Below the pieces are notes generated by a model. The model was given only the letters and a program-made list of their open reading frames with translations. It did no database searches and was not told where the DNA came from. From a virus, in the IMG/VR virus record IMGVR_UViG_3300025322_000107, positions 1-33,006 of that record: DNA of 33,006 nt; one strand, given 5' to 3'. Positions within the stretch are counted from its first letter, which is position 1, and the number at the start of each line of letters is the position of its first letter. Made by a program: the position numbers and the translations under genes. Below are positions 2,601-32,900 of the stretch, piece after piece.

Positions 2601-2673
2601 CCGCTAATAGCTCAGGGGTTAGAGCGCCAGCCTTATAAGCTGGAAGTCGATGGTTCAATTCCATCTTAGCGGA
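2601..2673 (+). tRNA. tRNA-Ile (anticodon UAU)
   Basis: The 73-base gene folds as a full cloverleaf. The acceptor arm is CCGCTAA/TTAGCGG with discriminator A. The D-arm is AGCTC...GAGC, the anticodon stem CCAGC/GCTGG with loop CTTATAA, and the T-arm GATGG/CCATC with loop TTCAATT. The loop gives anticodon UAU, which reads AUA. AUA codons are frequent in this phage, so the tRNA likely supplements the host pool. CCA is not encoded. Confidence 0.95.
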
Positions 2674-2688
2674 CTAGGAGGAGAAGAA

Positions 2689-3309
2689 ATGTCAAGTTGG
2701 AATTGTGAGCAAGTGGAACGTATGAATGTTTTGGCAAATGATCCAGCAATGAAACTAGCATTTTATTGTTCGGACCAACATGGAAGGGCAATTAATGGAG
2801 GAACAAAAAATCTAATATGTTATGCTGGAGCTATTCATGAACTTGTAGAACCTTTGGAGCTATGTGGAAATGCATTGCACGCGACATATACGCCACATCA
2901 TTGGCGCGGGTGTCGTGTATGGGTTGTTGCTCTTCAGAACTCACGGATAGATGGTAATAAACTTGGAGCACTATACCGAGAAATAATTGGTGAAATATTA
3001 CCCGAAGATTGTATCTCAGCTTCAATTGGTGTACGTATTGGATTGCTTAATTTAAGCGGAGCAAGCCTTACGAATGCAAATCTTTCAAATGCAAATCTTT
3101 CAAATGCGAATCTTTCAAATGTAAATCTTTGGAATGCAGATCTTTCATATGCGAATCTTTCGTATGCAAATCTTTCAAATGTAAATCTTTCAAATGCGAA
3201 TCTTTCGTATGCAAATCTTTCAAATGTAAATCTTTCGTATGCAAATCTTTCAAATGTAGATCTTGGACATTGGTATCGAGCTTTAGATGGTTTCGCACGC
3301 CTAAAATAA
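2689..3309 (+). CDS. Pentapeptide-repeat protein with DUF7666-like N-terminus
   Basis: This encodes a 206-residue protein. Residues 1 to about 115 include CGNALHAT and [13 protein letters not shown], like the C-GxHA signature of DUF7666-type phage domains. The C-terminal third is at least 13 perfect pentapeptide units of the A(N/D)Lxx type, predicted to fold as a right-handed beta-helix. An in-frame ATG at 2650 lies inside the tRNA T-arm and is rejected. ATG 2689 follows a strong AGGAGGAG site. Some pentapeptide-repeat proteins mimic DNA and protect gyrase, but fewer repeats are present here than in typical gyrase-binding members, so no function is assigned. The repeat DNA is recombination-prone. 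Confidence 0.85.
3061..3270 (+). repeat. 15-bp tandem repeat array inside the pentapeptide gene
   Basis: Fourteen near-identical 15-base units, with consensus close to GCAAATCTTTCAAAT, encode the pentapeptide helix. Variation falls mainly at GCA/GCG/GTA and TCA AAT/TCG TAT positions. Because the period is a multiple of three, other frames also stay open here; these are not genes. Unit number could change by slippage without breaking the reading frame. Confidence 0.95.
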
Positions 3310-6697: not shown

Positions 6698-7015
6698 ATG
6701 GATTCATATCTTGGATCTTTACATCAAGATCTTCTAGCTACACGAACAACTCAAGCATTAAAGTTAATTAAAATACATAACTATTTTCCTAGTACAGAAT
6801 TAGCGTTTCCAGAACCTTTTTTATATAAAGAAGTTGAAGACTGTGCTTTGCATGTATTATACGCTAGTGTAAAAGGTGAATTTGTTCTTAGTTGTGTTAT
6901 ACTTCATAGACAAGCTAAAATTCCTTCGATAGTATGTTATGATCTTACAGTAGAAGAAATTCAAGGTCTATTTGAGCAGTTTTTGCTAGATGCGGAGAAG
7001 GTAAATGGAATATAA
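6698..7015 (+). CDS. Hypothetical protein upstream of Cas4-like nuclease
   Basis: This 105-residue protein has no recognised domain. It has a mixed alpha/beta pattern with a central beta-rich part (EFVLSCVILH) and an acidic helical C-terminus. The start follows GAAAGGG. Its end overlaps the nuclease start by 11 bases and carries the nuclease ribosome site (GGAGAAGG), so the two proteins may act together. Confidence 0.75.
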   Translation: MDSYLGSLHQDLLATRTTQALKLIKIHNYFPSTELAFPEPFLYKEVEDCALHVLYASVKGEFVLSCVILHRQAKIPSIVCYDLTVEEIQGLFEQFLLDAEKVNGI

Positions 7016-7808
7016 TCTTAAGCTTAGTGGATCAGGTAATGGCATTTCTAGTATTCTTCCTTGGTTTGGATGTTCTCTCCAAGCATCTTTTAATCAAGAA
7101 CGAACTAGCCCAGAAAGTCTTACTTTTACTAAGGAAGGTAAATATATTGGAATGCTATATCATGCATTTCTAGATATTTATTTTTCTAAAGGAGAAAGAT
7201 TTAATCCAACCCTGGTTAAATTTGTATCATCTACATGTGAACTTTCTATAAATGAAGATTGTAGAATTGAAGCAGAACGCCTTTTCCTTCACTATCAAGA
7301 AGATCATTTTACACATTCTTCTGGAGAAGTTATATCTACTGAAGAACATTTTACAATAGATTCTTCAGTATTTAATCAACCAGGGCTTACAGCACAAATA
7401 GATAAAGTAACTAGAGTTCTCGAATCTCATCTTCCAAATATAGAAAGGCAATATGGGCTTAGATTGACTCCAGGAATTTATTCTTGGGATTATAAACAAC
7501 ACGGCCGGCAAGATTCGACTTTGATAGAACAATATTTGAATTCAATTCAAGGATTCTTCTATCAGAAAGTATTACAGCATAAGTATGGAGATGGATATAA
7601 AGGCCATATTTTTGATGTTTGTATTCGTACTAAATCCCCACGATGCTTTTGTATTTACCAAGAATTGATAGATGAGCCTCAATCAATTTTGATAGATACT
7701 ACTGTTGCTAGAGGTTTAGCTCTTAGATTTGCTCCAATAGCTAATCCAACCCGGTGCTATGATTGGGGTAGATTGTGCTCATATTTTAATACATGTTCTA
7801 GATATTAA
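7005..7808 (+). CDS. Cas4/RecB-like PD-(D/E)XK nuclease with Fe-S cysteines
   Basis: This 267-residue nuclease is of the PD-(D/E)XK superfamily, Cas4/AddB-type. Visible landmarks are a helical YHAFLD with His53, Asp133 in GLTAQIDKV, and Asp162/Lys164 in SWDYKQ. The C-terminus has CYDWGRLCSYFNTC with Cys251, Cys258 and Cys264. With Cys23 near the N-terminus these match the four-cysteine 4Fe-4S pattern of Cas4 nucleases. It probably trims DNA ends for recombination or replication. No CRISPR array or other cas gene is present, so a CRISPR role is unlikely. The start has a good GGAGAAGG site. Confidence 0.85.
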   Translation: MEYNLKLSGSGNGISSILPWFGCSLQASFNQERTSPESLTFTKEGKYIGMLYHAFLDIYFSKGERFNPTLVKFVSSTCELSINEDCRIEAERLFLHYQEDHFTHSSGEVISTEEHFTIDSSVFNQPGLTAQIDKVTRVLESHLPNIERQYGLRLTPGIYSWDYKQHGRQDSTLIEQYLNSIQGFFYQKVLQHKYGDGYKGHIFDVCIRTKSPRCFCIYQELIDEPQSILIDTTVARGLALRFAPIANPTRCYDWGRLCSYFNTCSRY

Positions 7809-7816
7809 GGAAAACT

Positions 7817-8023
7817 ATGAACGACACTGAAAAATTTCAAGAAGAAGAAGAAACAGATCATATGCTTCTATCTGAAATGAAAAAACAATATCTTCAGGCA
7901 GTACATACGTTGGCTGTAACTGTAGATACTTGGATTTCACTTTCTGGTGAAGATGAAATCCCGAAAGTAGTACTAGAAGCTCTGCATCTATATCGTATAT
8001 CTTGTGCTAGGTATTTAACATGA
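7817..8023 (+). CDS. Small acidic hypothetical protein
   Basis: This 68-residue, mostly helical protein has a very acidic N-terminus (EKFQEEEETDH). The start has AAGGAAA. Its stop overlaps the ATPase start (ATGA), pointing to coupled translation. No domain is recognised. An accessory role for the neighbouring ATPase is possible. Confidence 0.7.
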   Translation: MNDTEKFQEEEETDHMLLSEMKKQYLQAVHTLAVTVDTWISLSGEDEIPKVVLEALHLYRISCARYLT

Positions 8024-8832
8024 TAAAATCTAGCAGAGAATTAACTCTAAAAGATTTGAATCTTTTATTCTATGGTCCGCCGGGAAGTGGTAAAACTTTT
8101 GTTGCTGCTTCAGCATCTAAGTATTGGCCAGAAGTACTTGAGAAAGTAAATACCTGGACAACACTTAAGGATCTACTGTCAATTTCAGTAGATGCGGGCG
8201 CGACTGATGGCTTGGCGCAATACAAACTTGAAGTACCTTCTATTTCTTTTACAGAAGTTATGAAGGAAACTGGTTCAGATGTAGCTGAGTCAATTAGAAA
8301 AATAACTGCCGAAGCTAAAAAGCATATTGAACTGGTAAATAAGACAGAATCAGATACTTGGATAGTAGTCGATACTATCTCTATGTTAGATCGGTATTTC
8401 ACGGATTTTTATGAGCCTTTATCTAAAGATGGATATACTCTTTACAGAAATGTATTAAATGCTCATAAGCGTCTATATTCATCTTTGTCTTTGATTCCAT
8501 GTAAAAAGATTTATTTATGCCATTCTAAAGCTTTTGTTGGTACAGATGACAAAGCAAAACTTCAAAGACAAGCAAAATCTGCTCTTGCCGCAGAAATATC
8601 TCCAGATATAACAGGACAAGCTAATGTAATTTATATTGGTAATTGTTCACTTGAAGGAATTGTCCTCACTTCATCTTCTGGTGGGGATAGTCCAGTATAT
8701 AAGAGGAAAATTTATACACAAAATGTAAAAGGTTTTGAAGGAAAAAATAGATGGGAATCAATTCTCGGTAGAGAATTGGAGCCTAATGTACGAAAACTAG
8801 TTCAAACAATTCAGAAAAATTTACAGGAATAA
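8020..8832 (+). CDS. Sak4-like RecA-fold ATPase (AAA_24)
   Basis: This 270-residue ATPase resembles phage AAA_24/Sak4 recombinases, a single-domain RecA-fold family that works with a phage ssDNA-binding protein in strand annealing. Walker A is GPPGSGKT (19-26) and Walker B WIVVDT (114-119). KKIYLCHSK lies at the sensor strand. Length and motif order match the family. The next gene is a plausible ssDNA-binding partner and a Cas4-like nuclease lies just upstream. That is the usual exonuclease/annealase/SSB grouping. The start overlaps the previous stop (ATGA). Confidence 0.85.
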   Translation: MIKSSRELTLKDLNLLFYGPPGSGKTFVAASASKYWPEVLEKVNTWTTLKDLLSISVDAGATDGLAQYKLEVPSISFTEVMKETGSDVAESIRKITAEAKKHIELVNKTESDTWIVVDTISMLDRYFTDFYEPLSKDGYTLYRNVLNAHKRLYSSLSLIPCKKIYLCHSKAFVGTDDKAKLQRQAKSALAAEISPDITGQANVIYIGNCSLEGIVLTSSSGGDSPVYKRKIYTQNVKGFEGKNRWESILGRELEPNVRKLVQTIQKNLQE

Positions 8833-8841
8833 GAGGAAAAT

Positions 8842-9432
8842 ATGGCCCCTAAGATTCAATACACCGATGAACAAGTTTCTGATGCGGCGGCACGTTCTCG
8901 CCTACGCGAGGGTTGGTATAAGTTTGTTATTAGAGATGCAGAAGCTACTATTTCGGCGACATCAAAGCATTTGATGCTAGTATCAAATGATCTTGCTATG
9001 GAAGATCATGATGATACAAGCTCGGCTGTTACTCCCGGAGTGAAGAATCGCTTGGTTCTTCCTTTTGCTAATTCAGATGAAGAAGGACATGTTGGTCCTA
9101 ATACTTCTGGATTTTGTATTCAATGGGCTCGGGCTTTGCTTGGGTCAAAGGAAATTCCGTATTATCCGAAGCGTGACCCTAAGACTCAAAAGCTTTCATT
9201 CGGTGATGAAGAAATCACTGAGGAGCAGGCCGGAACTATCAGAAAGCAAATCTTGAAGAAGGTTTTTGACCAAGTTATTGCTTGGTATGATGACCCGGCT
9301 TTGTTGACTGGTAAGGTCTATTATGGCCTTGTTGAGCATTCTGGAGATTATGCTCAGGTTGCAAAGATGGAATATTCACTGCCACCGAAGACTGAGTGTG
9401 TTCCTAAGGGGCATTTCATCGTAAAGAATTAA
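8842..9432 (+). CDS. Putative single-stranded DNA-binding protein
   Basis: This 196-residue soluble protein lies directly after the Sak4-like ATPase with a good AGAGGAAA site. The N-terminal part (LREGWYKFVIRDAEA) looks like the first strand of DUF669-type phage proteins, often considered ssDNA-binding. Codon choice is visibly more G/C-ending than in its neighbours, as in the capsid gene, which suggests high expression and fits a protein needed in bulk. It is followed by a strong hairpin. The assignment is by context and weak resemblance. Confidence 0.55.
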   Translation: MAPKIQYTDEQVSDAAARSRLREGWYKFVIRDAEATISATSKHLMLVSNDLAMEDHDDTSSAVTPGVKNRLVLPFANSDEEGHVGPNTSGFCIQWARALLGSKEIPYYPKRDPKTQKLSFGDEEITEEQAGTIRKQILKKVFDQVIAWYDDPALLTGKVYYGLVEHSGDYAQVAKMEYSLPPKTECVPKGHFIVKN

Positions 9433-9438
9433 GCTTGA

Positions 9439-9467
9439 ATGCGGATTATTTAATAGATAATCCGCAT
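9439..9467 (+). terminator. Strong hairpin between ssDNA-binding gene and tRNA-Leu
   Basis: ATGCGGATTAT (9439-9449) pairs perfectly with ATAATCCGCAT (9457-9467) across a 7-base loop, beginning 6 bases past the stop codon. No U-run follows, only CTT before the tRNA. It may be a weak terminator, a 3' stabiliser for the abundant upstream message, or a landmark for tRNA processing. Confidence 0.6.
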
Positions 9468-9470
9468 CTT

Positions 9471-9552
9471 GCCGAAGTGGCGAAATGGTATACGCAGAAG
9501 ACTTAAAATCTTCCGTTGAATAAACATGCGGGTTCGAGTCCCGCCTTCGGCA
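9471..9552 (+). tRNA. tRNA-Leu (anticodon UAA)
   Basis: This 82-base class II tRNA has acceptor arm GCCGAAG/CTTCGGC with discriminator A. The anticodon stem is GAAGA/TCTTC with loop CTTAAAA, giving UAA. There is a variable arm of about 15 bases and T-arm CGGG-TTCGAGT-CCCG. It reads UUA, the dominant leucine codon in this A+T-rich phage, so it probably supports phage translation. Confidence 0.95.
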
Positions 9553-9571
9553 TTGTATTGGAGGAAATTAA

Positions 9572-9783
9572 ATGTTGATATTAAAAGTCCCAAGTGTATC
9601 TATGCAAACACCTCTTGAGCGTATATATATATTTATCCTGGAGAAGCATTTACTGTATATCTTAAAGGAGAGGATAACCAAGTAGCAGTTGAGCTGCATG
9701 TTACACCAGAAGGCATTATAAATATTCTTCTTCAAGAAGAACATAAAAAGTATATTCATACATTTAGTGAGATTTATGAATAA
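9572..9783 (+). pseudogene. CsrA-like small gene broken by a (TA)n frameshift
   Basis: From ATG 9572, behind a strong GGAGG site, the frame reads MLILKVPSVSM...LER and then hits a TAG after the run (TA)5 at 9622-9631. One fewer TA unit restores one frame: ...ERIYIYPGEAFTV..., running to TAA 9781 for 69 residues. The rejoined product starts MLIL and has PGEAFTVYLKGEDNQV and LLQEEH. These align loosely with the CsrA/RsmA core (MLIL, GE, NQV, VHREE). The RNA-binding Arg is Gln in this reading. The similarity is a by-eye guess. The gene may be a real mutation, a phase-variable switch or a sequence error. It overlaps the next gene by 8 bases. Confidence 0.65.
9622..9631. repeat. (TA)5 dinucleotide tract at the frame break
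   Basis: Five TA units sit exactly where the two halves of the small gene fall out of frame. The halves rejoin if one unit is lost. Dinucleotide tracts are prone to slippage in replication and in sequencing. Confidence 0.8.
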
Positions 9784-10057
9784 ACAACATATAGATCAAG
9801 TAAATCGAGATATAAAAGCATTTACATGGAATGCTAAGATATTTCAAGTTAGATTTAAGGAGGTAGCATTAAGCTTAACTATATCTGAATTAATGCGCAT
9901 AACTGGATTAGCTATGTCTACAGCGCATCATTTAAGATTGAGTAAGGTAGCTACTCCATCAATTAGAACTTTAGCTATTATTTGTGGATATACTGGAATT
10001 TCTTTAGATTGGATTCTCGGATTGTCGGAAAGGAAGTATCAAGATGATTGTGAGTGA
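9776..10057 (+). CDS. Cro/C1-type helix-turn-helix regulator
   Basis: This encodes 93 residues from ATG 9776. A GTG at 9767 in the same frame is less likely. The C-terminal half carries an HTH_3/XRE-like domain: ISELMRITGLAMSTAHHLR is the HTH, followed by the typical PSIRTLAIICGY and the closing helix ISLDWILGLSERK. It lacks an obvious dimerisation domain, so it is Cro-sized. The start overlaps the end of the broken CsrA-like gene by 8 bases, so its translation may depend on that frame being read through. It probably controls phage transcription; the target is unknown. Confidence 0.75.
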   Translation: MNKQHIDQVNRDIKAFTWNAKIFQVRFKEVALSLTISELMRITGLAMSTAHHLRLSKVATPSIRTLAIICGYTGISLDWILGLSERKYQDDCE

Positions 10058-10280
10058 TTCTGTATCAGATTTTATTACGCATTATGAAGCTAGACAACAT
10101 GAAGAAATAGCTAGGAATGCTTTTATACAAAAAGAGCTTTTGAAAGCTATTACTAGTTTGATAGAACAGAATAGATTTTTGAATGCAAAAATTGATTTGG
10201 TTAAAGCCATGGCTGAATCTTTGGATAAAAATATTGAAACCATTAAAGCTGGTGTTATAATTGAAGTTTCTAAGGATTAA
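10044..10280 (+). CDS. Small coiled-coil protein
   Basis: This 78-residue, almost entirely helical protein has heptad-like spacing of Leu/Ile between residues 25 and 70, so it probably oligomerises as a coiled coil. The start lies 14 bases inside the end of the HTH gene with a GGAAAGG ribosome site. No domain is recognised. Pairing with the regulator just upstream is possible. Confidence 0.7.
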   Translation: MIVSDSVSDFITHYEARQHEEIARNAFIQKELLKAITSLIEQNRFLNAKIDLVKAMAESLDKNIETIKAGVIIEVSKD

Positions 10281-10282
10281 AT

Positions 10283-10879
10283 ATGAAAATTATTGGATTT
10301 TCTGGTAAGTCTGGATCTGGTAAAGATACTGGCGCTGATAATTTACAAACATTACTATCAGTTAATGGGTATGCGGCAAAATTGTTTTCTTTTGCAATAC
10401 CGTTGAAAGATATTGTTAATGCTTGTTGTGGTTTTCAAGAAAATAAAGATTCTCCAGCCTATACTATAGATGGTAAAGAATACACTCCTGGAGAAATGTA
10501 TCAAATAGTAGGTCAAGGTATTAGACAAGCTATTCCTGGATTCTTTGCTAATAGGTTACGGCATTGGATTAATACAAAGCATTTGAACACTGTTACTTCT
10601 GGGGCTAATATTGGAAATACATATTATACTGATCCAGATTATTTAATAATAACTGATGTCCGATTTATAAATGAAGCTCAACTTATACGTGATATGGGAG
10701 GTAAAATAGTACGTATCCACAGAAATGTAGTTAGTCTTAGACCACAGACTCATATTTCTGAGACAGAAATGGATACTCTTGAATTTAGAGATCTTGTTAA
10801 TTTTGATATCTATAATCACGGAGATCTTGCAGCTTTCTATAAATCTATTAAGGCATTATACACGGCGATAGTTGAATAA
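10283..10879 (+). CDS. Deoxynucleoside monophosphate kinase
   Basis: This 198-residue P-loop kinase resembles T4 gp1-type dNMP kinases, which phosphorylate dNMPs to dNDPs for DNA synthesis. The P-loop is GKSGSGKD (8-15). TDVRFINEAQLIRDMGGK is the characteristic central segment, followed by IVRIHR. Length suits the family. It sits directly before the DNA polymerase, consistent with local dNTP supply. The start is 2 bases past the previous stop, with AAGGA upstream. Confidence 0.85.
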   Translation: MKIIGFSGKSGSGKDTGADNLQTLLSVNGYAAKLFSFAIPLKDIVNACCGFQENKDSPAYTIDGKEYTPGEMYQIVGQGIRQAIPGFFANRLRHWINTKHLNTVTSGANIGNTYYTDPDYLIITDVRFINEAQLIRDMGGKIVRIHRNVVSLRPQTHISETEMDTLEFRDLVNFDIYNHGDLAAFYKSIKALYTAIVE

Positions 10880-10884
10880 ATTTA

Positions 10885-13281
10885 ATGGAAGACTTTGTTA
10901 AATATGCTCAATGTGAATCTTGTCCTTTACATGGAAAGCAGAAAGTTATTTCAAAAACATTAAATAAGAATGCTAGATTAATAATTCTAGGTGAAGGTCC
11001 CGGCGGAAGTGATGAAATAATGAAAGATGTATTTTCCGGCAAAGCCGGAATGTATCTTTCTATAGTCATGGAACGCCATGATATTCGTAAGGTAGATGTA
11101 TATAGAACTACAGCATTACTTTGTCGCGGAGATAAAACATTAAAAGAATGGGAATGGCGTCAAGCCGTAGCTTGTTGTCGGCCTAGACTTGCGGCAGAGT
11201 TAGCATTAATTAATACTAAATATGTTGCTGCTCTTGGTCAGCGGGCACTTCAAACTTTAACAGATAAGTCTAAAATATTTGATAATATTGGTACTCCTCT
11301 TAATGGAATAGATACTTTTACTGGATATAAATTTATTGCTTGTTTGAATCCTGCTTTTATTCTACGAACACCGCAATGGGGACCCGTATTTGAAATTCAT
11401 TTTACTAGAGCTTGGGCATTAGCTAATAATAATCTTCCAGAATGGAAATGGCCTAATATTATTTATGAACCTAATGAAGAAATGTTAGGTGCTCTGCATA
11501 AATTAAGGAATAATCAAAATGATAGAATCATCGCGGTTGACGTTGAAACGGCTGATAAAGATTACAAATCAAAGCTTTTGGATATTGGCTTTTCTAACAA
11601 AACGCAAGCTATTTCAGTTCCTTGGTTTGCTCTAGAGAAGAATAGTTTAATACATGAAGCTATAAGAAATGTAACAAAATCGATACTATCGGATATATCA
11701 TTAACAAAAGTACTTCAGAATGGGCAGTTTGATTCGGCTGTATTTGCTTGGAATAATCTTGAATTTTCTGGTACGGATTTTGATACATTATTAGCTCATG
11801 CTGTAGTCGCTCCACGATTAAAGCATTCATTAGATATAATTGGATGTATTGAATTTCATGCACCTAGGTGGAAGATTATCTTTAAGAAAGCTAAAGATGA
11901 TTCTGGTGGTAGCAGATACTTAAACGCAGATCCAATAGAACGAGCTATTTATAATGCTCGAGATTGTTATATAACCCGCCTTCTCTATGATGTTCTATTA
12001 GAACGCTTATACATAACACATAATGGTTTATCTTTATTCGAACAAAGTTTAGCTCTAACTAAAAGTTTAGCTTTACCTATGCGTTTATATGGAGTCCGGG
12101 TTGATGCATCTAAATTTGAATATCATAGAAAACTTCTTTCTGAAAAGAAAGAGCAAATTTTAGGAGAAATGTATAGTTTAGCTATACAGGCTGGATTTCA
12201 AACATTTTCTCCAACTAAAGATGTTCGAAAATTCTTTCAACATCTTGGAATTAAATCTACTAAATTAAGCCAAAAGACTGGGCAAGAATCCTTTGATGCT
12301 AAAGTATTAACTAGTCTTTGCGCTCATCCTAATGAAGTAGCAGCAAAGATGGCTCGTGCTATTTTAGTATTTCGTCGATATGCTAAGCTATTAGCTACAT
12401 ATATAGAAGGCTTAAATATAGATGAATCTGGAAGAATACATCCTACTTGGAATACTCATGGAACTAGAACAGGGCGTTGGTCTTCACAAGAACCAAATGT
12501 GATGAATATTCCTAAGCCTCAATATGGTAGAAATGAAGTTGGTGAAAAGATTATTATAAAATCTGGGCTTAGAGATTTATTTCAAGCATCAGAAGGAAAA
12601 TATTTAGTTTCAGCCGATTATTCGGCTCTAGAAGCTAGGATTATTGCCTTGATTTCTGGAGATAAAATTCTTTGTGATTGGTTTCTACATAATGTAGATG
12701 TTCATATAGAGACGGCTAAGATTTTATTTAAGACTAATAATCCAACATCTCAACAACGAGAATTAGCTAAAAAAGTACGTTACGGGTATCATTATGGCTC
12801 TTCTACTGAAACTGCGTGGCGTTCCTTAATTGTAGATTATCCAACACTACCAATGTCTTTTGTTGGAAGGCTATTTAAGGAATTAAAATCTTTACATCCA
12901 GGCATATCTAGCTATCAAAATCAAACTCTAAGAGATGCTAGAGAAAAAGGATATGTAGAATGTCCAATATCTGGTAGGCGACATCATTTTCATGGGCAAT
13001 TAGATCCTAGTGTTGCATTAAATGTACCTATTCAAGGTAGCGCAGCCGACGTTATAAACCCGGCGGCATTAAGATTAAATATGCGCCTAACTTCTGAAGA
13101 AAAATTCATATTTCAAATCCATGATGATTTAACTCTGGAAGGACCAGATTTTATTTCTTTAGGAAAAAAGTTAAAAGAAGAAATGGAACGTGAAATTCAA
13201 GTTAAAGATGCTAAAATGATATTTCCTGTAGATTTATCTTACGGTAAAAATTGGGGCGAGATGAAACACCTGGAGCTATAA
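10885..13281 (+). CDS. Fused UDG-like / 3'-5' exonuclease / family A DNA polymerase
   Basis: This is a 798-residue replicative polymerase. Residues 1-180 resemble family 4 uracil-DNA glycosylases: CESCPL (Cys10, Cys13), GEGPGG (36-41), and Cys80 and Cys97/98 for a 4Fe-4S cluster. The usual HPA motif reads NPA (155-157). The DEDD exonuclease has DVET (219-222), NGQFD (279-283) and YNARD (356-360). The polymerase has motif A DYSALE (578-583), motif B RELAKKVRYGYHYG (625-638) and motif C HDD (746-748). Tyr633 sits where E. coli Pol I has Phe762 and T7 has Tyr526. Exonuclease and polymerase sites look intact; glycosylase activity is doubtful. SPO1-type phages have a comparable UDG-like polymerase domain. 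Confidence 0.93.
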   Translation: MEDFVKYAQCESCPLHGKQKVISKTLNKNARLIILGEGPGGSDEIMKDVFSGKAGMYLSIVMERHDIRKVDVYRTTALLCRGDKTLKEWEWRQAVACCRPRLAAELALINTKYVAALGQRALQTLTDKSKIFDNIGTPLNGIDTFTGYKFIACLNPAFILRTPQWGPVFEIHFTRAWALANNNLPEWKWPNIIYEPNEEMLGALHKLRNNQNDRIIAVDVETADKDYKSKLLDIGFSNKTQAISVPWFALEKNSLIHEAIRNVTKSILSDISLTKVLQNGQFDSAVFAWNNLEFSGTDFDTLLAHAVVAPRLKHSLDIIGCIEFHAPRWKIIFKKAKDDSGGSRYLNADPIERAIYNARDCYITRLLYDVLLERLYITHNGLSLFEQSLALTKSLALPMRLYGVRVDASKFEYHRKLLSEKKEQILGEMYSLAIQAGFQTFSPTKDVRKFFQHLGIKSTKLSQKTGQESFDAKVLTSLCAHPNEVAAKMARAILVFRRYAKLLATYIEGLNIDESGRIHPTWNTHGTRTGRWSSQEPNVMNIPKPQYGRNEVGEKIIIKSGLRDLFQASEGKYLVSADYSALEARIIALISGDKILCDWFLHNVDVHIETAKILFKTNNPTSQQRELAKKVRYGYHYGSSTETAWRSLIVDYPTLPMSFVGRLFKELKSLHPGISSYQNQTLRDAREKGYVECPISGRRHHFHGQLDPSVALNVPIQGSAADVINPAALRLNMRLTSEEKFIFQIHDDLTLEGPDFISLGKKLKEEMEREIQVKDAKMIFPVDLSYGKNWGEMKHLEL

Positions 13282-13514
13282 TGACAATATTTATTTGTCC
13301 TATCTGTTTTGCTACTACTGCCGCTAAATGTCTTAAATGTAAAGTTTATGCCGAAGAAGTAAATTCTGGGGCTAGTACTATTCTTACTATGGCAAGAGCT
13401 CTAAATGGTTTACTGTTAAGTCGAAAACCTAGTATAAGAATTTTAACTAAGAATATTATTCTTGATGGATATTGTCAAGTTTGTGGGCAATCTAATTGCG
13501 CTCAACATCTATGA
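13281..13514 (+). CDS. Small zinc-finger protein
   Basis: This encodes 77 residues from ATG 13281, which overlaps the polymerase stop (TAATG). An upstream in-frame ATG at 13251 lies inside the polymerase gene and is less likely. Cysteines are arranged as CPIC...CLKC near the N-terminus and CQVCGQSNC near the C-terminus, enough for one or two zinc sites. It is probably a nucleic-acid or protein binder. No named family is recognised. Confidence 0.75.
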   Translation: MTIFICPICFATTAAKCLKCKVYAEEVNSGASTILTMARALNGLLLSRKPSIRILTKNIILDGYCQVCGQSNCAQHL

Positions 13515-13798
13515 AAATTACAGAAGAAGATAGACAGAAATTTATCTCTACCGAAAATGCAATGTTATTTCATGTTGGAAAATATAATATATATGTAGAG
13601 CAATATAAACCATACATACATAAAGCTATATCTTTTTTTAATTGTCCTATAGTAAGTACAGGAGATCATATACATCTTATCCAAGATGAATACTTATTTA
13701 AGCATAAACCAACCGTAATTAATGTAGGCTGTATTAGACAAGTTCAAGTAGTACTTATGTCTGAAGCTTGCATTAATAATGCTATTAGAAATAGATAA
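13511..13798 (+). CDS. Hypothetical protein
   Basis: This encodes 95 residues from ATG 13511, which overlaps the previous stop (ATGA). It is predicted alpha/beta with no membrane segment, no cysteine cluster and no known motif. The tight overlap supports it as a translated gene between the replication and packaging modules. Confidence 0.7.
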   Translation: MKITEEDRQKFISTENAMLFHVGKYNIYVEQYKPYIHKAISFFNCPIVSTGDHIHLIQDEYLFKHKPTVINVGCIRQVQVVLMSEACINNAIRNR

Positions 13799-13799
13799 T

Positions 13800-14096
13800 A
13801 TGCCAAAAATTTCATCTATTGCAGTTGATCCTGATGATTTACCTAAATTAAAAGCTCTAATTATGTTAGAAGCTAAATCAAAAACCGTTATAGGTAAGGA
13901 AACTATAGCAGAAACATTAGCTATGTTAATTTTGCAACAGAAAGTATTGTTTATTCGCATTATGGCCGGCGAGATTGGAGTAGATATTCAAAAAACATTT
14001 CCAGCATATTCAGTACGTATTCGTCAATGCCTTCTAAACTTAGGTTTAATTGATGTTCCACGAGAAGAAAATGCCGAAGATATACAACCGCTCTGA
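13800..14096 (+). CDS. Hypothetical helical protein before terminase
   Basis: This encodes 98 residues from ATG 13800, 1 base past the previous stop; an earlier ATG at 13779 is unlikely. It is mostly helical. The second half (GEIGVDIQKTFPAYSVRIRQCLLNLGLI) could form a winged-helix or HTH-like fold, but no family is recognised. Its place two genes before the large terminase makes it one of two small-terminase candidates. Confidence 0.65.
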   Translation: MPKISSIAVDPDDLPKLKALIMLEAKSKTVIGKETIAETLAMLILQQKVLFIRIMAGEIGVDIQKTFPAYSVRIRQCLLNLGLIDVPREENAEDIQPL

Positions 14097-14301
14097 TATT
14101 TTAGAACATAGATACATAATCAGTGATAAAGAACGCTATCAATGGTTTAAGCTTTGGTGTGATGGTTTATCTTGCCAAAAGATCAGCGAGAGATATGGTA
14201 GAAATTATAATACAATAGCTGATTTCATACGTACATTTTTAGGTATTGATGAATTGCCACAGACTTGTACTAGAACATTAAATACTGAACACGAGATATA
14301 A
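14071..14301 (+). CDS. HTH protein, candidate small terminase subunit
   Basis: This encodes 76 residues from ATG 14071, overlapping the previous gene by 26 bases. The central segment WFKLWCDGLSCQKISERYG followed by RNYNTIADFIRTFLG reads as a helix-turn-helix of the kind found in small terminases and resolvase C-termini. It ends 2 bases before the large terminase start. Small terminases bind the packaging site and usually lie exactly here, but this one would be very short and has no clear oligomerisation domain, so the role is tentative. Confidence 0.6.
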   Translation: MPKIYNRSDILEHRYIISDKERYQWFKLWCDGLSCQKISERYGRNYNTIADFIRTFLGIDELPQTCTRTLNTEHEI

Positions 14302-14303
14302 GC

Positions 14304-16049
14304 ATGGCGTCTGTAGAAGCAAAAATAAAATTTTTACAGAAACATTGGCTTAATCCAAAAGGGAAAAAATTTTCTATAGAAGGTCGAGAATGGGTATTAG
14401 ATTATTTTCGTTCCTTAGATGGGTTTAAGCTTTGGCCTGTTAATATAAATAAGGTTTGCCTTCTATGTAGAACTCAATGGGGAGCTATCATAGAAGATGA
14501 AAGTGAATCTAAATCTACTAGGACAGAAAAACATAGACAAGAAAATCAAGGCTGCGAAGGATTATCATCTGAACCAATTTTCTTTACTGTATTCAAGGCA
14601 GATCGTCGAACTGGAAAAACTTTTAATTTCGGTGCATATTGCGGCGCGTCTATGTTTCTTGAAACATGGCAAAATATAGGTTTTGTTTCTACATCTTTTA
14701 TGTCTTCAGAAGATTTAGTTCAGGAAAATTTTCGCGGGCCTATAGAAGCATCTAAAGCTCTGAATGCTAGAGCTACGATGATGAAACGTATTATTACTAT
14801 ACCAAGACAGCGTAGTAAATTACGTTTCTTTGGTACTATTCCGAAAGCCATGACTGGAAAAGGGTTTACATTATTAGGTATAGATGAAGCTCGTGATGTT
14901 GATGCTAAAGTTGCAATAGCTGTTTTACCATCTATTCAAGAATCCGGCGGCATTAGATGTATGCTTTGTGCTTATTTCAAAGCAGAAATACCAAGTCAAA
15001 CTATAGATAAATGCCCTAATTGTGGAGGAAATCTTAGGCATTGGTTTGGTCGAGCTTGTATTATGTCTTCATCTGGTATCATTAAAGAACGTGCAGTTTT
15101 AGATTGGTTTTTTCATCTTAAAAATCGTTTAGCGTCTGAGCCCGATAAAAATGCGCATTTAATTGAAATTGATAATGCTGCAGAAGCAAATCCAGATTTT
15201 AATATAGATGCAAAATCGGCGGCTCGACGTATTTTCTCAACTGTAGAAGGCCTAAAAGAATTAGTAGATATTGAATATAATTCGGAATTTCGACGCATTG
15301 GTGATCAATTTATATCTAAACAGGATATAGATGCCTGTGTCGATTCTGCATTAAATAATGATATTCTTCCTGCTCTAGAACCAACGGTGATGTTTTTAGA
15401 CACATCTCGTATTCAACATCTAACTTCATTAGTTGCTCTTTCATCAGAGTCTTTTGGTAAGAAAAATTTTGAGAAATGTTTTGTATCTCAAATTCATGTT
15501 TGGGATCCTCGAGAAAAAACAATTAGTGGTAAATTAGTTTTACCCTATGGTATAGAACCAAATTCAATCGAAGAAACTGTAGATATAATTTTACCACAAT
15601 ATCCAAATCTCATAGGATTATGGGTAGATTGTAGGAATGCTAAAGCTGTAACTTGGGCTAAGCCTTTTGTTAAAAAGTTAAAGGAAAAGTCTTATGGACA
15701 TTTAGTGCATAGTGTCTTCGAGTCTGAATATGGAAAAAACTTTCGTGACGCAGGATGGGCTGAGATAGAACGCCTTATTATGCATCGTTTAATTCGATAT
15801 CCAAATGTTTTAAGATTGCTTCAAGAATTAAATGGTGCAGTTTGGAAAATGTATAGAGGAAATATGCAAGTACGTGAATCTACAGCATCAAACCATTTAG
15901 ATGTTGCTGAAGGTTTAGCAAGTACAGCTATTTTAGCTTTAATGCATGGTAATAAAAGAATAGGAACTTTCAAACCAAGTGAAAATATTGAATCTAAACT
16001 TAAAGATATAAATGAAAAAGTTAAACAGAAGTTTCGTGGTAGTTTCTAG
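14304..16049 (+). CDS. terL: Terminase large subunit with inserted zinc ribbon
   Basis: This 581-residue packaging motor cuts concatemers and drives DNA into the procapsid. The ATPase has a variant Walker A, KADRRTGKT (98-106), and Walker B LLGIDEAR (190-197). The nuclease has RNase H-fold acids at MFLDTS (Asp366), LWVDCR (Asp442) and HLDVAEGL (Asp533). Between the domains, Cys219, Cys222, Cys237 and Cys240 (CMLC...CPNC) form a zinc-ribbon-like knuckle. A similar cysteine element occurs in GpA-type terminases, and a further CLLC pair lies at 52-55. The gene follows the small HTH gene directly. The assignment is confident; the headful or cos mode cannot be read. Confidence 0.88.
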   Translation: MASVEAKIKFLQKHWLNPKGKKFSIEGREWVLDYFRSLDGFKLWPVNINKVCLLCRTQWGAIIEDESESKSTRTEKHRQENQGCEGLSSEPIFFTVFKADRRTGKTFNFGAYCGASMFLETWQNIGFVSTSFMSSEDLVQENFRGPIEASKALNARATMMKRIITIPRQRSKLRFFGTIPKAMTGKGFTLLGIDEARDVDAKVAIAVLPSIQESGGIRCMLCAYFKAEIPSQTIDKCPNCGGNLRHWFGRACIMSSSGIIKERAVLDWFFHLKNRLASEPDKNAHLIEIDNAAEANPDFNIDAKSAARRIFSTVEGLKELVDIEYNSEFRRIGDQFISKQDIDACVDSALNNDILPALEPTVMFLDTSRIQHLTSLVALSSESFGKKNFEKCFVSQIHVWDPREKTISGKLVLPYGIEPNSIEETVDIILPQYPNLIGLWVDCRNAKAVTWAKPFVKKLKEKSYGHLVHSVFESEYGKNFRDAGWAEIERLIMHRLIRYPNVLRLLQELNGAVWKMYRGNMQVRESTASNHLDVAEGLASTAILALMHGNKRIGTFKPSENIESKLKDINEKVKQKFRGSF

Positions 16050-19146: not shown

Positions 19147-19545
19147 ATGGGTGCTAGAGCATCTAAGGATCTAGGACAATTATTATCATATCCGATGGCA
19201 GCTACTACTACCATCACGGCTGGTGATTCAGTCATGATTAATAGTGCTGGATATGCCGTTGTTGCCGTTGCTGCTGCAGCAAACAAAGGTTGTGTTGGAG
19301 TTGCTGTAGCAACAGTTGTTAATTCTGGCGCTGCAGGAGCAGCGGAAATCCTTGTTCAAGAAGGTACATATCTATTCGTTGGTGTTGGTCTTACACAATC
19401 AGAGATTGGAGATATTGTATTCTTTTCGGACGCACAAACATTCTCTAATACACAAGCCGCTAATGAGCCTAGAGGTGGAATCTTAGTTAGGTATGTTTCT
19501 GCTACTAGTGGCTGGGTAAAGATGGGCGTGGCGTTAGCCAGCTAA
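19147..19545 (+). CDS. Capsid decoration/cement protein (DUF2190-like)
   Basis: This 132-residue protein is rich in Ala, Gly and Val with short beta strands. GYAVVAVAAAANKGCVGVA and IGDIVFFSDAQTF resemble DUF2190/decoration proteins that sit on the capsid surface. It lies just before the major capsid protein and after the scaffold, the standard place for a decoration protein. The ribosome site GGAGGT overlaps the end of the scaffold gene. A head-fibre or minor head role is an alternative. Confidence 0.65.
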   Translation: MGARASKDLGQLLSYPMAATTTITAGDSVMINSAGYAVVAVAAAANKGCVGVAVATVVNSGAAGAAEILVQEGTYLFVGVGLTQSEIGDIVFFSDAQTFSNTQAANEPRGGILVRYVSATSGWVKMGVALAS

Positions 19546-23673: not shown

Positions 23674-24024
23674 ATGAGAAAAGCAAAAGGCAGACCGTCT
23701 GGAAGTATATATACATTTATTCCTACAGCGTTTGATAATCATAAAGATTCAGATCCTGTAACTTTTCATCTTAAAGCACCTAATGATGCTCAGCGCCGAG
23801 ATATAGTATTATTAGAAGCCAATTCTATGCACGAGCATCTAAAAGCAGTTAAGAAGGCAGTTTTGAATCATGTTATAAAAGTAGAAAATTATCAAGATAC
23901 TACAGGTCAAGAAATTAAAGATGCTAAAGATTTATTAACTCATGGTGAAACTCAATTCTTACTTGAGATTTATCAGGAGTTAGTTGATTCAACATCTGTA
24001 ACTGAAGCACAAAAAAAAGAATAA
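23674..24024 (+). CDS. Tail assembly chaperone, unshifted form (gpG-like)
   Basis: This 116-residue protein has the size and place of lambda gpG-like tail chaperones, between tail tube and tape measure. It is charged and helical. Its last codons are CAA AAA AAA GAA TAA, ending in a run of eight A that forms a frameshift site. Most ribosomes would stop at 24022. A fraction should slip -1 and make the longer product described separately. The start has AGGATTAAAG upstream. Confidence 0.8.
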   Translation: MRKAKGRPSGSIYTFIPTAFDNHKDSDPVTFHLKAPNDAQRRDIVLLEANSMHEHLKAVKKAVLNHVIKVENYQDTTGQEIKDAKDLLTHGETQFLLEIYQELVDSTSVTEAQKKE

Positions 24025-24371
24025 GCAGGATTGCAAGTCTGCATTTAACTAATCATTCAGCGGTCACTTGGGATTGTAAATCCTGCAAGAAACAAAAGCT
24101 TCAAAACGAGAGAGGTTGTATAGGAAAAGCAGAAAATCCAATCATTACTAAGAATGGATTTAAGTTTGATATTTGTCCTATTAGATATCAATTGAAATAT
24201 AAAGAAGAAGTAGAACTTTTTGCATTATGGTTTAACTATAAAAGATTTAAGTGTTTACCGTATTCAGGTGGATTCTTAGAACAAGATCATAGATTCTTAG
24301 AGACAGTAAATATCTTAGATCCAATATTAGAATATATTCAAGAGATGCAACGAAAGGCTAATGCAGGCTAA
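23674..24371 (+). CDS. Tail assembly chaperone, -1 frameshifted fusion (gpGT-like)
   Basis: Reading join(23674..24018, 24018..24371) gives a 232-residue product. The 117-codon extension has no stop from 24018 to TAA 24369 and no start codon of its own near its beginning. It contains WDCKSCKKQK, GCIG and FDICPIRY, four cysteines spaced like a zinc site, then a helical end LEYIQEMQRKANAG. The slippery heptamer A_AAA_AAA at 24012-24018 and the stem at 24025-24086 sit at classic spacing. The arrangement mirrors lambda G/GT, where the fusion binds the tape measure, encoded here next. Frameshifting is inferred, not measured. Confidence 0.8.
24012..24086 (+). promoter_or_regulatory. Programmed -1 frameshift signal
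   Basis: The slippery site A_AAA_AAA_G lies at 24012-24019 in the correct phase. Six bases later GCAGGATT (24025-24032) pairs perfectly with AATCCTGC (24079-24086), and the loop contains TGCA-AGTC-TGCA (24032-24043). This is the standard slippery site plus downstream structure of tail chaperone genes. Confidence 0.8.
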
Positions 24372-29939: not shown

Positions 29940-32900
29940 ATGGCTTGGCATGATGAAGCTACTGGTACTGATCTACATTATCCTCGTGGAACAATGGGTG
30001 CCGCACAGGCATTTATAGCATTAGATTTAGTTGATAATACCCTTAAAGCATATCAAATTACAGATGCGGCCGGTACTTCTGATTTATTTACTATTAAAAC
30101 AAATAACAATGATGAATGCTTTACATTTGGAGCTAAAGCAGTTATTCAAGATGTATACGCATATGCTGGAAGATCAGATGCATTATTAACTATAACAAAT
30201 GGTGCTACAGCCCTTACTTCTGCGGGAAGTGCTATTGTAGTTAATTATGCTGGTGGAAGTATAAATGTAGCACAAAATGTTTATGGACTATATTTATATG
30301 GGCAATCTAATGTTGGTACACAATATTCTATTGGTGTATATGCAGACTCTGGATGGGATTATGGGGCTCGTTTCGATAGTCCAGTAAATTTCACATCTAC
30401 TATTCTATTAAATAATGGTGCTGGAGCTAGTGGAGAAGTTTTAACTAGTCAAGGCGCTGGAGTTGACCCGATATGGGCGGCGGCTGGGGCAGCAACAGAC
30501 CATGGTAGTTTAACCGGACTTGGAGATGATGATCATACCCAATATGCTCTCTTATTGGGTAGAGCTACTGGACAAACATTAATAGGTGGAACCGCCAGCG
30601 GCGATGATTTAACTTTTGAATCGACATCACATGCAACTAAAGGATCTATTTTATTCCGAGATTCAGATATTCAATTTAATTCAGATGCAGCAGTTGGAGT
30701 TAGTACTAGTAGTACATTAACTCTTAAAGGTGCATCTGGTACTGAATTATTCCTTACTACAGTTGCTGCTACTCAAAATACATTAACAATAATTCAACGC
30801 CGAGGTGCTACTGGTGTTGATGCCGGACAATTAGATTTAATTCTTGGAGAAGTATCAATAGTTGGTAGATCTACTGGCATTATTATGAATGCTGGAGATG
30901 CGATCAATTCGACTCAAGGTTCTTGTTATTTAGAAGGAGATGGAAGTCTCACTCTTTCAGCTTATATAGATATTACTCCAACATTCATTGGTTTAGATAT
31001 TTCTGGATTGTTATTTAGAAATGAAGCTGGAAGTGATCTTGCTACTGCAGCTAATGAAGGTGCTTTATATACTAAAGACACGGCTGGAACTACACATCTT
31101 TACTATAGAGCTAATTCAAATGGTACTGTATATCAAATTACTCCAGGTGGAGCTGCAACAGATCATGGTAGTTTAACCGGTCTTGGAGATGATGATCATA
31201 CCCAATATGCTCTTCTACTAGGTAGAGTTACTGGTCAAGTCTTAATAGGTGGAACCGCCAGCGGCGATGATTTAACTTTTGAATCGACATCACATGCAAC
31301 TAAAGGTTCAATCTTATTTCGCGACACTGATATTCAACTAAATTCAAATGCTGTTGCTGGTACAGATGAGGATGTTTTATTAACACTTCTCGGTGGTGAT
31401 GGAGCAACGGCTCTTTGGCGTTCTATTATCTATCACGACGGCGGACTTGGAATTGCAGGTATATATCAAAATCTAAATGGTTCTGATAGAACTAATGGTA
31501 CTAGATTTGATATTGATAGAGCAGATGTTGTAACTGCCAGAGGTTCAGCTTTATATCTTAATGCTGGTTCTGGAGCAGCCAATTTAACTGCATATATTCA
31601 ATTAGCTTCTTCAGGAGCAACTCTGTTTGTTGGTTCCATCAGTGGCATGACTATTCGTGGTGGTACTGCTTCTGGAAATGATTTAACTTTCGAAACAACA
31701 TCACATGCTACAAAAGGTACATTTATTTGGTCCGGTGCATGTGATTGGAATGTTGGTGGTGGTGTTGGAAGTGCGGCGCAAGTATTAACATCTAATGGCG
31801 CCGGAGCCGCGCCTACTTGGCAAGCTAGTGGTGGTGGAGGTGGTACTTTAGATGCTGCTTATGATTATGGTGGTGCTGGTGCTGGCCGTACAATTATAGC
31901 GGATACCAATGCTGTTAGAATATATGATGGAACTGTAGGTTCTACAGCATATTTATTACAAATAGATAGACCGGCCGGAGTATATACTGGAACTCCACAT
32001 GGAATCTTAGTTGATTTTTCTGCAGCTACTAGTTTTAGTAATGCAGCAGATATTTATGGTATTAGATTAATTGGAGAAACAAATATTGATACTGGGGCTA
32101 GTATTGGAGTTTCAGTTGATGGTGGATGGGATGTTGGAATTGAAATTACAGTTGCAAATCATGCATTGAAGCTTCCTGATGGATTTATTAATGGATCTGT
32201 AACTGGATTAACTGCAGTTGCAGGTACATTAGCATTTCTTACTGGAACATTTGCTGGAACTTATGCTCCAGGTAATGGTTGTGTACATATCGGTGATGAC
32301 CTCGGTAATGCTAGTGCAACATCACAAGGTGCGGGTTGCGTTGTTATTGGTTCACAGGGAGCTTATGCTAGAAATACAGCATCTTACGCGGTTGCAATTG
32401 GTTACACGGCAAATGCGGCTTCTAGTTCTATTGCAATCGGACATCTTGCTACAGCCTCAGCAACTGAATCAATTGCGATCGGAAATAGTACACCTTCAGC
32501 GGGTGGAGCACGATCAATAGCTATTGGTCGTGGAGCTACTATTGGAGGTTCTGGATCTGAATCAATTGGCATTGGCTATGGAATATCTATAAATAATGCT
32601 TATTGCTTAGGATTTGGTCGTGGAGCTACTTCAACAGCAGCTAATCAAATTATATATGGTTCTAATGGATATGAATATTCTCAAGTATTTTTTGGTGAAG
32701 GCGTAGTTGCTGCGACCGTTCCGACTTCAATCTCAATTAACCCAACTGGAGCTAGCGGTACTGATATTGCGGGCGGATGCATATTCTATATCAATGGTGC
32801 GCGTGGAACTGGAACAGGTATCGGCGGTGATTTAGTATTTCAAACTGCACCACCGGGCGGAACTGGAAGCACACCAGGGGTATTAACAGAGAGAATGCGA

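Follow-up and report, generated by a model that had tools for sequence, protein, structure and literature searches.

A small early gene of a poorly sampled tailed phage, probably put out of frame by slippage at a (TA)5 tract

A small early gene of a tailed phage is genuine, and its reading frame is broken at or beside a short (TA)5 tract. The reading that best accounts for the locus, to which a probability of about 0.6 is given, is that of an orphan gene of some 69 codons, thrown out of frame by a recent slippage of two bases at the tract and encoding a probably all-beta protein that is not CsrA. As it is known, the locus is one out-of-frame allele of this orphan gene.

The split gene and its coding signal

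The window, i.e. the whole stretch of DNA analysed, is a 33,006-base virus record of IMG/VR with a G+C content of 36%. The features of the locus are the following:

9470..9553, plus strand: tRNA-Leu (anticodon TAA), with no encoded CCA, directly upstream of the split gene (ARAGORN; Rfam RF00005, 62.5 bits)
9560..9564, plus strand: Shine-Dalgarno GGAGG of the split gene, from sequence
9572..9685, plus strand: 5' frame as assembled, 37 codons from ATG to TAG, with a post-tract tail (9632-9682) non-coding by score
9619..9783, plus strand: 3' frame, 54 codons and TAA, strongly coding by score; C-terminal portion of the split orphan protein
9622..9631, plus strand: (TA)5 tract, site of the frame break
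9776..10057, plus strand: Cro/C1-type HTH gene (Pfam HTH_26 PF13443, 26 bits for a cut-off of 22; phrog_8, E 8e-7)
10044..10280, plus strand: next operon gene, 78 aa, without confident family, overlapping the HTH gene

The ATG at 9572 is preceded by TTGGAGGAAATTAA, and the end of the GGAGG lies eight bases upstream of it. From this ATG, frame 0 runs for 37 codons up to the TAG at 9683-9685, while in the second frame, shifted by two bases, a TGA at 9616-9618 precedes an open stretch that begins at 9619 and ends with the TAA at 9781-9783. The two frames overlap in 9619-9682 only, and the tract, read directly as (TA)5 at 9622-9631 and followed by TT, falls inside this overlap. A preliminary description of this DNA had proposed a gene with a strong ribosome site going out of frame at (TA)5 and a rejoined product of 69 residues; both proposals hold, given the GGAGG, the two frames, a likeliest switch point on the tract and their joining into a gene of 69 codons.

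Regarding coding potential, codon statistics were trained on thirteen early genes of the phage. Over 9634-9780 the second frame scores 16.4 bits, above 72% of true 49-codon segments (mean 12.8 bits, SD 5.7), open off-frame segments having a mean of -7.9 bits; this score was reached by none of 131 open off-frame or antisense segments, and of the 49-codon windows read off-frame in the early genes, only 1.2% stay open. Past the tract, frame 0 drops to -9.5 bits. The 19 codons at the 5' end carry a weak coding signal of 1.6 bits, so that the start rests mainly on the ribosome site. By codon likelihood the frame most likely switches within 9617-9638, on or beside the tract, and together with the coding signal of the second frame this establishes that the gene is real and that its break is at or beside the repeat. 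Initiation inside the second frame was rejected, as no ATG, GTG or TTG in that frame lies at a usable distance after the internal GGAGAGG (9667-9673).

Among the dinucleotide repeats of the window (TA)5 is the longest, four-unit tracts lying at 13587, 21813 and 23706, and (TA)5T is the longest alternating AT run. Since 0.43 alternating AT runs of at least 10 bases are expected per window under a first-order model, the tract by itself is mildly unusual at most.

The ATG of the HTH gene, at 9776, overlaps the stop of the second frame by exactly 8 bases, in agreement with the downstream Cro/C1 gene and overlap that had been described at the outset; in the mechanical ORF list this gene starts at GTG 9767 instead. 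Stop/start overlaps of this kind are typical of translational coupling, and by analogy the split gene and the HTH gene are probably coupled. On the tRNA side, the phage carries two such genes, for Ile(TAT) at 2601-2674 and for the Leu(TAA) listed above, reading AUA and UUA, respectively, two codons that the early genes use frequently.

Source phage, second record and search for relatives

The source is a tailed phage, in which a UvrD-like helicase, a Sak4-like annealing protein, a nucleotide kinase and a DNA polymerase are recognisable, as are the terminase, the portal, the head protease, the major head protein and the tape measure. Its terminase gene is the following:

14304-16046: terminase large subunit, by profile only (phrog_2, E 1.6e-7)

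Among 50,697 phage records, no match was found for the DNA of 7000-16000, nor any tblastn match for the terminase protein, and the DNA polymerase is some 22-31% identical to the polymerases of phage records. By these comparisons the phage is isolated, and its terminase, recognisable by profile only and without a tblastn match in this collection, places it in a poorly sampled lineage.

Three further IMG/VR records stem from the same phage, namely 3300025313_000071 (36,769 b), 3300025314_000182 and 3300025146_000226, each of them 1-2 SNPs away from the window, contig ends aside. At base 19431 all three have T, the window having C. Only IMGVR_UViG_3300025313_000071 spans the split-gene locus, and it carries an identical (TA)5; two records thus cover the locus, both with (TA)5. 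In a pattern scan of viral contigs allowing 4-16 bases between the flanks, no tract of another length was found.

Homologues of the rejoined protein were found, the same phage excepted, in none of the phages, viral contigs or genome contigs searched, by pattern-based scans that are sensitive to close relatives only and that distant ones could escape. Queries with the neighbouring genes (SSB-like, polymerase, terminase, capsid and HTH) returned from viral contigs further records of the same phage only, with the exception of distant polymerases, which were recovered with an alignment, and the terminase query had no matches in genome contigs. No counterpart of the split gene was seen in three related loci, the flanking ORFs of which were read fully; of a fourth locus the gene table was read.

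Besides the locus under study, the record shows several other peculiarities. Near its left end, over 126-500, the G+C content is 56-57%, compared with 36% overall; positions 1-500 match nothing in plasmids or Rfam, and this end is possibly chimeric or foreign. A gene with pentapeptide-like repeats (ANLSN) occupies 2650-3309, and the other assembly ends inside it. A 204-base direct repeat, 88% identical between 30485-30688 and 31148-31351, lies within a long ORF starting at 29940.

Slippage and other accounts of the frame break

Slipped-strand mutation at the repeat is the simplest account of the frame break. A slippage of two bases at (TA)5 would have put the gene out of frame, and since the second frame bears no other lesion, the event would be recent. 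Ribosomes starting at 9572 would then make a truncated peptide of 37 residues and stop at 9683, leaving the remainder untranslated unless the frame changes, presumably with loss of function. As they would be released some 90 bases short of the start codon of the Cro/C1-type gene, coupling to that gene would probably be lost or weakened. The slippage reading is supported by the population of the phage, whose four records differ by only 1-2 SNPs per contig, taken together with the assembly that has the same tract. An ancestral in-frame state is suggested by the coding signal alone, as the searches yielded no homologue with the unbroken form.

Alternatively, the tract length could flip reversibly in the population, switching the small protein and, via coupling, the Cro/C1-type regulator. 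As in phase-variable genes governed by simple sequence repeats (SSR), for instance those of Campylobacter, the break in the frame coincides exactly with a short tandem repeat inside a coding region, and the length of this repeat sets the frame, as SSR-mediated phase variation has it; the repeat is also the longest of its kind in the window and sits in the 5' third of a gene that is otherwise undamaged. Unlike them, this is a phage gene with a tract under the usual length and of equal length in both records spanning the locus. Chance alone would give about 0.4 tracts of this length or more per window. A survey of phase variation sets the cut-off for dinucleotides at six units or more, against five here, a value chosen for Campylobacter rather than a law, and cautions that tracts may be too stable to switch even when they satisfy its cut-offs (PMC6321876). 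A phase switch is not favoured and is judged unlikely, a selected switch being possible. Were the tract to vary in the population, the phage would carry a repeat-driven phase variation of which its own regulator is the target. The fuller proposal of a contingency locus, where (TA)n and the 8-base overlap jointly switch the small gene and the Cro/C1 regulator, so that phages in two regulatory states coexist in one population, is clearly improbable.

Scarcely likely either is that the ribosome or the RNA polymerase shifts frame at or near the tract, the full protein being made at some level. The coding signal of the second frame would fit such recoding, and so would the sequence of the tract, within which re-pairing from AUA to AUA two bases along is perfect; Weiss et al. 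reportedly described +2 shifts in 1987. In contrast, -1 re-pairing at ATA or TAT would be mismatched, and the RNA fold at the site is not unusual (z 0.42). The motif for programmed -1 frameshifting is X_XXZ_ZZN or Z_ZZN at the frame switch (PMC4066793). No X_XXZ_ZZN heptamer occurs in the frame overlap, whereas one is present in the tail pair of the same phage, and the two Z_ZZN tetramers of the overlap, T_TTA (9649) and A_AAG (9664), lie away from the likeliest switch point, codon likelihood favouring the second frame already by about 6 and 10 bits, respectively. Judged by these motifs, canonical -1 recoding is not supported. The locus resembles the -1 frameshifting of phage tail chaperones (lambda gpG-gpGT type) in that two overlapping frames would jointly make up one gene, but differs from it by the lack of a slippery heptamer and of an unusual RNA fold, and because re-pairing on the tract requires +2 (or -4). 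Under the slippage reading, the full product could still be made by rare or regulated frameshifting.

The tail pair itself lies at 23674-24371, where an A_AAA_AAA heptamer (A8 at 24011-24018) lies at the end of a 116-codon ORF and a second frame continues up to 24371, shortly ahead of the tape measure gene. The A8 run is probably the site of a -1 frameshift of a tail assembly chaperone pair, and neither half matches any PHROG.

An error of consensus or assembly at the repeat, with a genome that is in fact in frame, is improbable as well. The record is a metagenome assembly and the gene is otherwise intact, as such an error would have it; against this, (TA)5 is read in two separate records, which are told apart by base 19431, making an assembly error confined to the window unlikely. 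A dinucleotide tract of 10 bases is, besides, well within short-read accuracy.

Identity of the protein

The protein is an orphan, probably with an all-beta or beta-rich fold, as judged from a single-sequence model of the 54 residues of the second frame, which form a four-stranded beta sheet (pLDDT 75, pTM 0.52, i.e. moderate confidence). At E of 0.001 or less, the model of these C-terminal residues has no match in the PDB or in viral predicted structures. The rejoined protein has no match in Pfam up to E = 10, nothing better than E = 0.4 in PHROGs and no significant family in NCBIfam.

The preliminary description had taken the product for a CsrA-type RNA-binding protein, which would make it a phage regulator of this kind, and had proposed a profile check against PF02599. 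Small, beta-rich and beginning with MLIL, the protein does bear some likeness to CsrA/RsmA (PF02599), phage-borne copies of which occur in Pseudomonas and Vibrio phages, and it contains GE, NQV and EEH in that order. The identification nevertheless falls. Besides the negative Pfam search of the rejoined product, the PF02599 profile (family cut-off of 27 bits) retrieved nothing from either phage record at E up to 10. Against a CsrA profile built from ten sequences of the phage collection (nine phage records and one Salmonella contig found there), with filters off, the rejoined protein scores -0.8 bits for a mean of -0.7 in shuffles, is equalled or beaten by 787 of the 1,809 shuffles listed and comes 27th among the ORFs of the window. 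The spacing of the MLIL-GE-NQV motifs is wrong too: the GE stands 22 residues in, whereas the conserved GE of CsrA comes about 8 residues after the start and is followed by IG, which the orphan lacks, and QEEH stands where the ten CsrA sequences have HREEI with Arg44. Arg6 and Arg44 are the known RNA contacts of CsrA, and at neither position does the rejoined protein have Arg. CsrA forms an intertwined dimer of five-stranded subunits; the model of the 54 residues, a monomer, shows a four-stranded sheet and, as stated, lacks any significant fold match. A CsrA-type regulator is accordingly very improbable. As a matter of caution, MLIL and a few matching residues are insufficient for a CsrA identity.

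Two other identities were discarded. A toxin-antitoxin pair, which a small gene lying ahead of an HTH gene might evoke, has no family support, and the beta-only model is not suggestive of a RelE fold. A weak resemblance to the archaeal PCNA sliding clamp (residues 20-59, one beta-rich stretch, E 0.02; NCBIfam E 0.08) is not significant and was dropped as chance, the orphan being far too short for a clamp.

Beyond the question of identity, the locus matters for annotation, insofar as calling the 37-residue ORF here would mask a genuine gene some 69 codons long.
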